Notes under the pieces: generated by a model | The model's database searches: none | Told to the model about the DNA's origin: nothing | What the model saw: only the letters and a program-made list of their open reading frames with translations | Program-made: the position numbers and the translations under genes | Source: Allomyces macrogynus ATCC 38327 | Taxonomy: Eukaryota; Blastocladiomycota; Blastocladiomycetes; Blastocladiales; Blastocladiaceae | Direction: 5' to 3' | Assembly (NCBI GenBank): GCA_000151295.1 | Contig: GG745345.1 | Span: 922,733 to 986,732, forward strand | Length of the DNA stretch: 64,000 bases | Shown: positions 51,773 to 56,880 of the stretch, one piece after another | Numbering within the stretch: the first letter of the stretch is position 1 | How the letters are laid out: every line of letters begins with the position of its first letter

Positions 51773-54700
51773 ATGGCCCTCGTTATGGCCGACTTGATCG
51801 AACCGACCGCCTGCCGGCCACCGCCCAGGCTACCGCCAATTGCTCGACCGCGGCATTCTCGCCCGGTGCTCGCCCTCGCACTCTTGCTCATTTCGCTGCT
51901 CCTCTCTTGTGTGCCCCGACTTGCGCGCGCTCAAGCCGTCCAGTCGGCCGCCGGCTGGGGCAACAACCCCGTCAAGCCCTGGTGGGGTGCCGCGGGCCGC
52001 CCTTTGTCGCGCTCCGTCGTACCCAGCGGATTCGCCGACAACATCTCGGCCGTGGCCTGGACGGCGCCGTCGCCGCGCTTGATTGCAAAGTCGCTCTTTG
52101 ACAATGCCGCGATCCAGGCCGCCTTGACCAATAACGGCGCGTCCACGACCTGGTCGGCGCTGCTCTCTTACTTCAATGAAGTGCGTGGCAGGTCATTCAT
52201 TTCGTGCTCGGACGCACAACTTGGTTTGAGCCTCGGCTGATTGGACTCACGATCGGTTGCTATACGGATAGCTCTTGTACCTCGACCTGGTCCAACTCCA
52301 ACTCGACCCGACCGCGCCGTTCCCGATCCCTGTTCCGGCATGCGACGCGACGCTCGACCCTGGCTGTACCGGGAACATGGTCATTCAGCAGGCGCGCGCC
52401 GCGGGCAATTTTTCGGGCCCCATCAACGAGTTCCAGGCCTACAATCTCGCCACGGCTTTCATTGACGCTGGGTTTCTCTACGGTCCGATTGTCCAGTCTT
52501 GCCGCTTACTTCTCCACCATGTCTCAACTGACGTGCGCTCTCGTGATAGGCACGAGCACTTCGACACAGCAGTCGCTCCGCACCCTGACCGGCGGCCTGC
52601 TCAACTTGCACAACAACCAGCTGCCGACCGTCACCTCCTCGACGCCGTTCACGCTCGGGTCGACCGTGGTACCCGCGTTCCAACCCGTGGCGCTCGCCGG
52701 GGACTTGCGCATCAACAAGCACCCGGCGCTCGTGGCGCTCGTCACGATTCTCGCGCGCGAGCATAACCGCAAGGCGGTGGTGCTTGCCGCGGCGAATCCG
52801 ACGTGGACGGACGAACAGTTCGTTTTGCTGGCCTTGGCGGACAAGACGGTGTTTGGTGATGCTCATTCCTGCGCGTGTCGTCCTCTAGGCTCTTCCAGGG
52901 CGCGCGCCGGTGGGTTATTTCCGTATGGCAGCGCACGATCTTTGACGAGGTACACCCAATTCCGCCCCCGCATTCTCGTGCAACACCTTGCCCCACCGCT
53001 CACCCACCCTCCAACTCGGTAGACCTATGGCGCGACGATCGGGACCGGGTACCCCAGTTTTCCGGGCTACTCCAACGCCACCAACCCGGAAATCGACACT
53101 TTCACTGCCGTGTGCGCGCTACGACTCGGGACCATGGGCCGACAACCCGTTCTCTACCGGTACAACGACGACGGGTCGGAATTCGCCTCCGGTCACATTT
53201 ACACGACCGGCTCGTTCACGCCATTACCCGCCGTCAATTTCTCGGCACCCGGCGCACTCGAAGCCGTCCTCCGCGGTCTGGTCGGTTCCGCCGAGGCGCG
53301 GATGGGCCCGGGCGCGCATACAAGTGTCGCTGCGGACTTGGCACTCATGATTCACCGCGCGCGAGATTTGGGCGTGCCATCGTACGTGGCTGTACGCCGC
53401 GCGCTCGCGCTGAGTGCCCCAACGACCATGGCGGATATCTCGTCGAATGCCGGCGTGCAGGCTGTACTCACGTCGCTTTACGGGTCGGTGGCGAATGTCG
53501 AAGGGTGTGTGGGCGCCTGGGCTGAATCGTTTGCGTCGACGGCGCGGGTGGGCCCGACGATCGCCGCGGCTATGGCCAAACTACTCACGACCGCCTACAA
53601 GTCGGACACGTTCTACTATGCGTCGCCGACGTCCGGGTATTCGGCGAACGCGATTGCTGTGAAGCAAGCGACCATGGCGTCGATTTTCGTCGCGAATACC
53701 AACCTGGCCGTGTTCCCGAACAACGTCATCAACCCGGCGAATCCGCTCGTCGCGTTCAAGAATGCGACCGCGGCGACAACGCCGGCGGCGGACTTGTATG
53801 CGGCGCGCACGGTGCAGCTCGAGGCCGGGACCACGCTCAACTGGACGATTACCGAGCCGTACATCACGTTCCAGCTGGCGACATTCAACACAGGCTGGAT
53901 GGCGATTGGCGTCGGCGGGTACGGGATGCCCAACACCATGGACATTGCGCTCATCACGTGGCCAACGACCGCGAACCCGGTCGTTGACGACTACTATAAC
54001 TCGGGCTACTCGCCATTGCGCGACACGGCGAATGGTGGGACCGCCGACTTGACCGGGTTTGCCTACACAGTCGACGCGACGGGCCGGAACCAGTACACGT
54101 GGCGTCGGCGCCTCGCGACAGGCGATGCACGCGACTTGAACATCACGACCGGCTATATGCCCCTTGCGTTTGCGTACGGCCCGACACCCAATCTCGCGTA
54201 CCACGGGTCGCGCCGTGGTAAGACCTACGTCAATTTCTACGCGACAGCGAACACCCCGACCGTCACGAACGGCGGCGGGAACGGGACAACGACGCCGCCG
54301 CCACCGACCAAGTACTCGAAACCGATTGGGCTCAAGGTGCTGCACAGCTTGTTGATGATCCTGGCCTTCTTTTTCGTGATCCCGTTCTCGGTCTTCACCG
54401 CGCGGTACTGGGCGTCCAAGAACTGGCTCGACCTGCACTTCAAGACGAGCCAATTCGTATTTTCGCAAACGGCCCTGTCCCTCCTCTCGGCGCTCGTCTC
54501 GCAGGGCGGGCAATTGTCGTCGGCGCACGGGATCTGGGGGATCGTCACGTCCGTCGGGCTGGGACTGACGATGCTCTTGGGGATTTCCGCGAGTATGATG
54601 GCGCGGTTCGGTCGCACCGCGCAGACGTGGTCGCGACGATTGCATTTGCCTTTAGCAATTGGCACGTGGTGTGCGGGGGTGTACGACTCGTTGCTCGGGT

Positions 54701-56880
54701 GCGACGCGATTGAGAAGTTGAATCCGGCCTACAAGTGGTTCCGTGGATTGACGTGGGCGTGTTTGGTGGTCGTGCTCGTGTTGCTCGTGGTCGGCGAGTT
54801 CTGGCGCGTCAAGTACGGCCGGGTCGCGATCAAGGCGCTGCACAAGGTCCAGCGACTCGCGAATTTTTCGCTCGTCGCGTCCAAGTCGGGACTGCTCAAG
54901 GACGAGGACGAGTACCGCCGACTGCCCGAGTTTACGTGGGCCGAGCTAAATGAGAAGGTGGCGAGCGGGCGGCTGTGGCTCGTAATTGATGCGGTGATCT
55001 ACGTACGGCTTTTTCCTGGCAACGGCGTGCTATTGCATGTACAAAAACTGACTCGACCGCCTACGTGTGTTTAGGACGTGACGGCCTACATCGACACGCA
55101 CCCAGGCGGCCGCGACATTCTTCTGCGTTACGTTGGCGCTGACGCGTCGATGGCGTTCAACGGCATCATGCGGTCGGCGAGTGTCACTTCCACGGCCACG
55201 GCCAACACGGTCATGCGACCGCGGCACGTCTCGGCCATGCTGCAGCGACTTGTCGGCGCAAGTCCCGCGCCTTCCGCATCGGGCATGGCACGGAGCATGT
55301 CCGCGCGGCGACTCGTCGTGCACTCGCACTCGCGGCTGGCCCGGCTCAAGCTCAACACGCTGGCCATTGGTGTTCTCGCCGAGGACTCAGACGAGAAGCG
55401 GCGCGCAACGGCGGCAAATGCGGCGGTGGCGGCGGCCAATGACGAGTGGGTCGAAGGCGACCTCGTGCCGTCGTGGATCCCGCGGCCGCCGGTGCTCGGT
55501 ATGGCCGAGGAACAGTTCCGCCCACTGCGACTCGTGAGTAAAAGACGCGTGTGGGGTCCCGGCGGCGGCGGTGCCGAACCGGGCCCGAGTATCCTTGGTG
55601 GCCTGACGGCCGCCATGTCGCTGACGCCCGTGGCCCCCACAGAACCCGCGGCGAAAGCGCACCCGGTGTACTTGTTCCGGTTCGCGTTCCCACGCGAGAT
55701 GGACGAAGTGTGGCTGAAACCGGGCGACGCAGTACAGATGCAAGTTCCTGTGCCCAACACGACGCGGTTCGTCGTGCGCCATTTCACCCCGCTCGTCTGC
55801 CACTGCATCGGGCACATGGATTTACTGATTCGCTTGTACCCGGACGGCGCGCTCACGTCGGCGCTCGACCAGGTTGAGATCGACGACGATGTGCTCATGC
55901 GCGGACCGATCCGGTGCCCGAAATCGTTGTTGAAACTGGCACCGGCGGTGGCCGGGCGCACGTTCCCAGGGACCGACGACCAGGCGGGTGCCGCGGTCGG
56001 TGGATGGCCGACGGTCGTGGACGGGATGGAAGTGGATCGCGACTCGCGCGGGTGTTTTGAGACGGTTGGTCTTGTCGCGGCGGGGACGGGGATCACGCCG
56101 ATGCTCTTGCTCATTGACTATTATGCGCGGTTCTGTCCGCGGGACTCAGTGACCGGCCAGCCGGTCGCGAAAATCACGCTTCTGTACCAGGCGAGTACCG
56201 CCGCGGACCTGGTCTACGCGGCCGAACTGCAAGATCTCGCAACGTCGCTCGCACCGATGCTGCGCGTCGAGTTCTTTATCTCGCACTCGAATCCGGCCAC
56301 CGCGTCGTCGGCGCTCGCCGCGGCCACGCCCACTGCAGTACCCGCGTCCGGCCCTATTCCAGCCCACACGGCATCCCGGATCACCAAGAACGCGTTGCGC
56401 ATGTACCTCCCGCCGCCCGCGACCCGCACGGCCAGTGGCACCAGCACCAACGGCGCTCCCGCGTCGCGCCCTCCGTCCGTATTCGCGCGCACGCTCGCGG
56501 GGGGCGGGTCCGTATCGACGGTCGGCGGCGCATCCGTGTCGGTCCACGGCACGTTGCGCCGGCGGCCGTCTGTGTCGTTTGTCCTCGGCGGCGCCCCTGG
56601 GGTGCCAATTACGCCCGTGGGGCCACCGCAGCCGGCAACGGATTTGGCGGACGATGCGATGGCGCCCGCGGGCACGTTGGGCCGGCGTGGGATGCCAACG
56701 GCGGCAGCCCAGGTGCCGGTGCCGGTGGTAGATGCGGATGCGACGACGACGGATTTGGGGGTGGGGGTGCAGCAGGACGCTTTGATTGTGGTTTGTGGAC
56801 CACCGGGTTTCAATACGGCGACGGTCGAGATGTTGCAGCAGTTGGGGTACGGCGGGGCAGCGAATGTCGTGGTGTTGTGA
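51773..56880 (+). CDS. Peroxidase-like / DOMON / cytochrome b561 / cytochrome b5 / FAD-NAD(P)H reductase fusion
   Basis: Six exons: 51773-52180, 52272-52482, 52550-52817, 52889-52949, 53023-55002 and 55075-56880 (1,577 residues). A signal peptide (VLALALLLISLLLSCVPRLA) leads to an animal-haem-peroxidase-like domain (about 50-560): FIDAGFLYG, LAGDLRINKHPALVAL, ILAREHNRKA, WTDEQLFQGARRWVISVWQ. The usual DHD distal site reads DLV and the proximal GH site reads GT. A DOMON domain (about 575-720) has LNWTITEPYITFQLATFNTG. The b561 core (about 745-925) keeps four histidines in KVLHSLLM, LDLHFKTSQ, SSAHGIWG and RRLHLPLAIG. The b5-like domain has THPGGRDIL. The reductase (1175-1577) has RHFTPLVC for FAD, GLVAAGTGITPM and VVCGPPGF for NAD(P)H. 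Predicted role: trans-plasma-membrane electron export. The substrate is unknown. Confidence 0.9.

Follow-up and report, generated by a model that had tools for sequence, protein, structure and literature searches.

A predicted peroxidase-homology, DOMON, b561, b5 and flavin reductase fusion in Allomyces macrogynus, with the arrangement of a dual oxidase on another membrane core

Can a single protein chain in a flagellated fungus carry electrons from the cytosol to the cell surface without the core of a NOX enzyme? The window analysed here, a 64,000-nucleotide stretch of the Allomyces macrogynus genome, raises this question with a gene on its forward strand (51773–56880; all gene coordinates are positions in the window, and this copy sits on contig C58). 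The first-pass annotation read it as six exons encoding a secreted peroxidase-like domain followed by DOMON, cytochrome b561, cytochrome b5 and a flavin reductase, in an order that would link cytosolic reduced nicotinamide adenine dinucleotide (phosphate), NAD(P)H, to the outside in the manner of a dual oxidase (DUOX), the animal enzyme that produces hydrogen peroxide. We asked whether this is one gene, whether its outer domain is an enzyme and where its electrons would go.

The gene model, assembled by eye and by homology, reproduced the exon number, span and length first proposed: a splicing check of the six exons gave a reading frame of 1,577 residues that ends in its sole stop, and all five introns are GT..AG, of 67–91 bases each. 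Exon 5 is a single unbroken frame of 660 codons that spans the C-terminal half of the peroxidase-homology domain, DOMON, b561 and the N-terminal half of b5. Each intron interrupts either the peroxidase or the b5 domain, so that a gene boundary at 52950–53100 or 55003–55075 would fall within the one or the other and leave broken domains. A duplicate on contig C61 (locus L016, minus strand, 7993–2891) likewise has six exons, encodes 1,575 residues (92.0% identity over 1,569 aligned codons) and has GT and AG at matching alignment columns, in matching phases, at five of five introns. A two-gene reading was rejected on the position of the introns within domains and their conservation in the duplicate, and the exon 5 frame, the order of the Pfam matches and the C61 copy all bear out one gene with five modules in the order originally described. 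Because the C61 copy lacks the first ATG and shares the second (51788), translation probably starts at 51788, giving 1,572 amino acids. Hydropathy places a signal sequence ahead of the outer domain (hydrophobic residues 32–50, then ARAQAV).

When the 1,577-residue protein was searched against Pfam with hmmscan, eight families were listed at an expect value (E) of up to 10, to which curated cut-offs were applied (Table 1). An_peroxidase (covering model positions 2–522 of 530), DOMON, Cyt-b5, FAD_binding_6 and NAD_binding_1 all exceeded theirs. The b561 core, sub-threshold in this copy, is backed by four haem His residues and by the C61 copy, which scores 27 bits against a cut-off of 23. Neither the NOX/ferric-reductase core (PF01794) nor an EF-hand was among the eight families, which led us to reject a true DUOX; b561-type His residues stand in place of the NOX core, as the first reading had it. 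The FAD_binding_8/NAD_binding_6 type of reductase was not matched either, NAD_binding_6 reaching only E 0.29, below its cut-off.

Table 1. Exons and predicted domains of the fusion gene, in window coordinates
Feature	Position	Strand	Details
Exon 1	51773..52180	+	Signal sequence and beginning of peroxidase-homology domain
Exon 2	52272..52482	+	Peroxidase-homology domain; lost distal His region, YLDLV (Y139 L140 D141)
Exon 3	52550..52817	+	Peroxidase-homology domain; Arg260 kept, Glu replaced by Lys263
Exon 4	52889..52949	+	Peroxidase-homology domain, LFQGARRWVISVWQRTIFDE
Exon 5	53023..55002	+	Remaining peroxidase-homology domain (T353, proximal His lost), DOMON, b561, first half of b5
Exon 6	55075..56880	+	Remaining half of b5, then the linker, the FAD and NAD(P) domains and the stop codon
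Peroxidase-homology domain (An_peroxidase, PF03098)	51941..53709	+	Residues 57–545, exons 1–5; E 2.7e-73
DOMON (PF03351)	53833..54180	+	Residues 587–702; E 5.2e-9, 36.8 bits vs cut-off 32.7
Cytochrome b561 core	54340..54702	+	Residues 756–876; sub-threshold Pfam match, four haem His
Cyt-b5 (PF00173)	54934..55179	+	Residues 954–1011, interrupted by intron 55003–55074; E 2.2e-15
FAD_binding_6 (PF00970)	55660..55911	+	Residues 1172–1255; E 9.1e-11; RHFTP at 1211
NAD(P)-binding domain	56071..56877	+	PF00175 (NAD_binding_1) residues 1309–1370, E 1.9e-5; GTGITP at 1313, CGPPGF at 1550
Low-complexity insert	56287..56781	+	Residues 1381–1545; separates NAD(P) halves; RRRPS(1475)VSF

The two copies differ by a synonymous divergence (dS) of 0.495, with a ratio of nonsynonymous to synonymous divergence (dN/dS) of 0.094 (Nei–Gojobori), a value on which a pseudogene was rejected. 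By module, dN/dS was 0.082 for the peroxidase-homology domain, 0.125 for DOMON, 0.041 for b561, 0.016 for b5 and 0.081 for the linker; towards the reductase end it was 0.084 for FAD, 0.082 for the first NAD part, 0.214 for the low-complexity insert and 0.021 for the last 32 residues. The lowest values among the Pfam modules thus belong to b561 and b5, and the highest of the parts tested to the insert. Every module tested is under purifying selection, and the whole is one constrained gene. The duplication extends into the flanks (85% over window positions 49358–50422 and 85% over the block 51781–57364), and we infer that the genome is duplicated.

The outer domain has lost its haem site. In an alignment with Protein Data Bank (PDB) chains and bacterial relatives, the distal His is replaced by Leu140, the ester-link Asp before it by Tyr139, the ester-link Glu by Lys263 and the proximal His by Thr353; the distal Arg (R260) and a cation-site Asp (D141) are retained, and one cation-site Ser has become Gly. 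The bacterial comparison drew on 55 loci, of which the 22 with a near full-length match (L045–L066) were used and 33 partial ones were dropped before counting: both His residues are kept in 22/22, as they are in 8s6c, 6erc and 6azp. The best PDB matches of the domain are 8s6c (177 bits), PoxA (6erc; 136) and DUOX1 (103). A third relative on contig C63 (L017:3109–4241), 37–55% identical by exon piece, is readable over 250 residues and unreadable in its 3' part; at the sites covered it agrees with the C58 domain in its L, Y, K and R and is likewise without the distal His. These replacements suggest that the outer domain is probably a haem-free docking domain and not a peroxidase.

The same four sites are altered in the DUOX1 chains 6wxr and 7d3e (to S, L, R and S), which keep the same Arg and Asp. 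In DUOX1, too, a secreted N-terminal PF03098 domain has lost its distal and proximal His, Asp94 and Glu242 and kept Arg239 and Asp96 (PMC7794343), and membrane haems followed by a cytosolic FAD/NAD module complete the likeness. The replacements themselves differ, the two His having become Ser and Ser in DUOX1 and Leu and Thr in the C58 protein. The motif RDHG reads RDLG in both, a likeness that is weak because 7 of the 22 bacterial sequences are without that His as well, one having Leu in its place. Below the outer domain the two part ways: DUOX has a NOX/ferric-reductase core, EF-hands and FAD_binding_8/NAD_binding_6 (PMC9524095), where the C58 protein has DOMON, b561, b5 and FAD_binding_6/NAD_binding_1. 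The predicted protein is thus not a DUOX, yet it is arranged like one, under a cap in which the same haem sites are gone.

What such a cap might do is indicated by human DUOX1, whose peroxidase-homology domain binds no haem, lacks the ligands and has two cation sites; mutating these sites makes assembly with DUOXA1 fail (PMC7794343). A 2015 review termed the function of the dead DUOX domain obscure (PMC4420034). No match to PF10204, the family of the DUOXA partner, was found in the Allomyces genome, and the same search also found none in 14 control genomes.

A continuous path from NAD(P)H to the outside, as the first-pass annotation proposed, is plausible from module order and motifs. The four b561 His (H757, H788, H818 and H857) are invariant across the C58 and C61 genes and a third gene on contig C74 (below). 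They resemble in order and spacing those of HYP1, a DOMON–b561 (CYBDOM) protein in whose AlphaFold model the first His pairs with the third and the second with the fourth (PMC10784544). The HPGG His of b5 (His985) is present, as are the flavin-part motifs RHFTP, GTGITP and CGPPGF, and DOMON offers M618 or M622, and H710 just past the Pfam match, as candidate haem ligands. From this order and these motifs, cytosolic NAD(P)H would reduce flavin adenine dinucleotide (FAD), which would pass electrons to the tethered cytochrome b5; from there they would cross the membrane through the inner and then the outer b561 haem and reach the DOMON haem outside. The extracellular acceptor would most likely be ferric or cupric ions, with O2 possible, because HYP1 carries electrons to outside Fe(III) and Cu(II), by a proposed route through three b haems (PMC10784544). 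By analogy with DUOX, the peroxidase-homology domain, having no usable haem site, may be kept as a folded domain, stabilised by cations, that serves docking or assembly above the outer haems.

We therefore read the gene as encoding a single-chain plasma-membrane NAD(P)H oxidoreductase that would send electrons out through b561 and DOMON haems, most likely to ferric or cupric ions, beneath a haem-free docking cap, and give this reading a probability of roughly 0.6. Several observations weigh against it. The Cytochrom_B561 match of the C58 copy, at 16.5 bits (E 0.011), falls short of the cut-off of 23. An insertion displaces the second b5 His, for which His1027 downstream is a candidate found by eye, and the DOMON Met ligand stays ambiguous after alignment with the DOMON sequences on contigs C26 and C45. 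Of five expected b561 helices, three exceed a simple hydropathy threshold, as does one stretch in the NAD domain. AlphaFold models of exon 5 (two sequences) and exon 6 (three sequences) were unusable, with a mean predicted local distance difference test score of 31.7 and 32.4, respectively. HYP1 and other characterised b561 proteins draw their electrons from ascorbate (PMC10784544), which makes feeding by a tethered b5 a matter of deduction.

The alternative that survives best is a functional equivalent of DUOX, in which O2 would be the terminal acceptor and superoxide or hydrogen peroxide would be made outside the cell. The order of a haem-less PF03098 domain outside, membrane haems and FAD/NAD inside speaks for it, as does the matching pattern of lost ligands; moreover, a table of fPoxDB, which covers fungal and oomycete genomes, counts 0 Duox genes in 0 genomes (PMC4029949), so that the niche is open. 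We nevertheless consider it rather unlikely, given the lack of ferric-reductase/NOX and EF-hand domains among the eight families listed, the description of b561 proteins as ascorbate and metal reductases (PMC10784544, PMC9524095) and the presence in the genome of at least 17 PF01794 stretches, 15 of them over the cut-off, which means that the genome has NOX/FRE-type candidates of its own.

Distinctly less probable is a sensor or adhesion role for the outer domains, with the redox chain serving only to control a signal, for instance a contact-dependent switch or the state of cytosolic NAD(P)H. A haem-less peroxidase domain maintained by selection would suit such a role, and so would the RRRPS motif in the NAD-domain insert, which we take to be a kinase site; the main redox motifs are retained, however, and constraint is tightest, among the Pfam modules, in b561 and b5. 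That the outer domain is a working peroxidase, coupled with the reductase for the peroxide chemistry or wall cross-linking envisaged at first, is very improbable. A nearly full-length PF03098 match, tight constraint (0.082) and the kept Arg260 would fit an enzyme, but this proposal lost its footing, and an active peroxidase was rejected, because both haem-iron His and both ester-link acids are replaced, with the C63 relative the same at the sites covered. It is scarcely credible that a wrong splice model has joined two genes, one for the outer domain and one for the reductase; the by-eye, homology-built exons leave some room for this, but exon 5 by itself and the five in-phase introns of the C61 copy stand against it.

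The preferred reading, a surface NAD(P)H oxidoreductase with a docking cap, leaves a further question of origin. We put forward, tentatively and with more doubt than conviction, that the dual-oxidase plan was invented independently a second time, when a peroxidase domain decayed to a haem-free cap and was fused to a DOMON–b561–b5–flavin chain in flagellated fungi. In the best 30-row tree of the peroxidase domain, the fungal domains and DUOX are joined by a branch (support 79/64) that is not starred and carries a long-branch warning. Three quick trees were made with rows removed; without MPO, PoxA and C63, the fungal domains and DUOX do not join.

Possible building blocks occur in the same genome (54.0 Mb in 75 contigs), which was searched exon-wise with profiles, so that counts are lower bounds. 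The C74 gene (L042, minus strand, 3800–1293) is a single open frame with a b561–b5–FAD/NAD core in the same order; its Cyt-b5 match is over the cut-off, and its FAD, NAD and b561 matches are below theirs. It is 27% identical to the C58 gene from b561 to b5 and 24% from b5 to the end, with linker residues in common. The profile search found no DOMON or An_peroxidase match on the C74 contig, and no signal stretch was seen by eye in the gene; the core therefore occurs alone. On contig C45 lies a plain DOMON–b561 gene (DOMON by Pfam, the b561 part by eye). Since both kinds of gene are present, the fusion could have arisen from a DOMON–b561-type front and a b561–b5–reductase back. Genome-wide there are at least four DOMON matches at E up to 0.01 and at least seven An_peroxidase stretches, on C58, C61 and C63.

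The C74 gene also contains an SH3-like stretch (residues 570–615, E 0.026, under the cut-off) and adjoins a frame that by eye resembles 2-oxoglutarate dehydrogenase. Another unusual b561 fusion, on contig C66 (L005:109–2928, minus strand), is a 940-codon frame with Kelch-like repeats, recognised by eye, and a b561 core. The same contig carries two pairs of PF01794 stretches with equal scores and opposite orientation (C66:1314453–1317982 and 1328231–1331760), a pattern expected of an inverted duplication of recent date. Seven stretches in the genome match PF08407, the N-terminal family of chitin synthases, which points to fungi; the radial-spoke family PF04712, which points to a motile flagellum, has nine, confined to C73 and C75, and seven of these exceed the cut-off.

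Within the window, positions 13766–16211 and 57866–58183 show repeated similarity (73–85%, over 46–489 bases) to a cluster of small genes downstream of the C61 copy, which suggests that a family of short genes accompanies the fusion genes. Upstream of the fusion gene, at 50820–50885, runs a series of 22 TGG/GGT triplets, and a frame at 46412–47887 on the minus strand matches glycosyltransferase family 20 (E 3.8e-40), presumably of the trehalose-phosphate synthase type.

Known systems share parts of this layout. CYBDOM proteins (HYP1, CRR) have DOMON outside and then a b561 core with four His (PMC10784544), and the C58 protein has both modules in this order, with DOMON over its cut-off; HYP1 consists of DOMON and b561 only and takes electrons from cytosolic ascorbate (PMC10784544). 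Cyt-b5, FAD_binding_6 and NAD_binding_1, all over their cut-offs, are in turn features of b5-reductase-type proteins. The eFRE clade of stramenopiles and Naegleria also places DOMON outside on a flavin-fed membrane reductase, but its core is that of a ferric reductase and not b561, and the accessible text mentions neither PF03098 nor b5 (PMC3591440). Sponge DspNOX combines b561-like helices and a flavin reductase in one chain; it differs in having three NOX core domains and an EF-hand, and DOMON is absent from the paper's text (PMC9524095). Peroxinectin-type An_peroxidases (PoxA 6erc; 8s6c) provide the best PDB matches of the outer domain but keep the distal and proximal His that the C58 domain has lost. 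Among the papers listed by the literature searches, no title or opening of an abstract describes a chain combining PF03098, DOMON, b561, b5 and a flavin reductase; the first-pass claim that the combination is undescribed thus met no contradiction there. Relatives may well exist in sequence databases; a tblastn search of plasmids with a 456-residue piece gave no match. On its predicted domains, the protein is best classed with the b561/DOMON electron exporters, as a new domain architecture in which a b5-type flavin reductase is attached.

Such a protein would be a case of b561 supplied by NAD(P)H in place of ascorbate, and an example of a surface reductase in a fungus that does not belong to the NOX/FRE family. 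A similar dead domain on a different membrane core is also a natural experiment: the features it shares with DUOX are likely to be the domain's job. If the invention was indeed independent, the haem-less cap would have been adopted more than once to control the outward transfer of electrons, irrespective of the core in the membrane.

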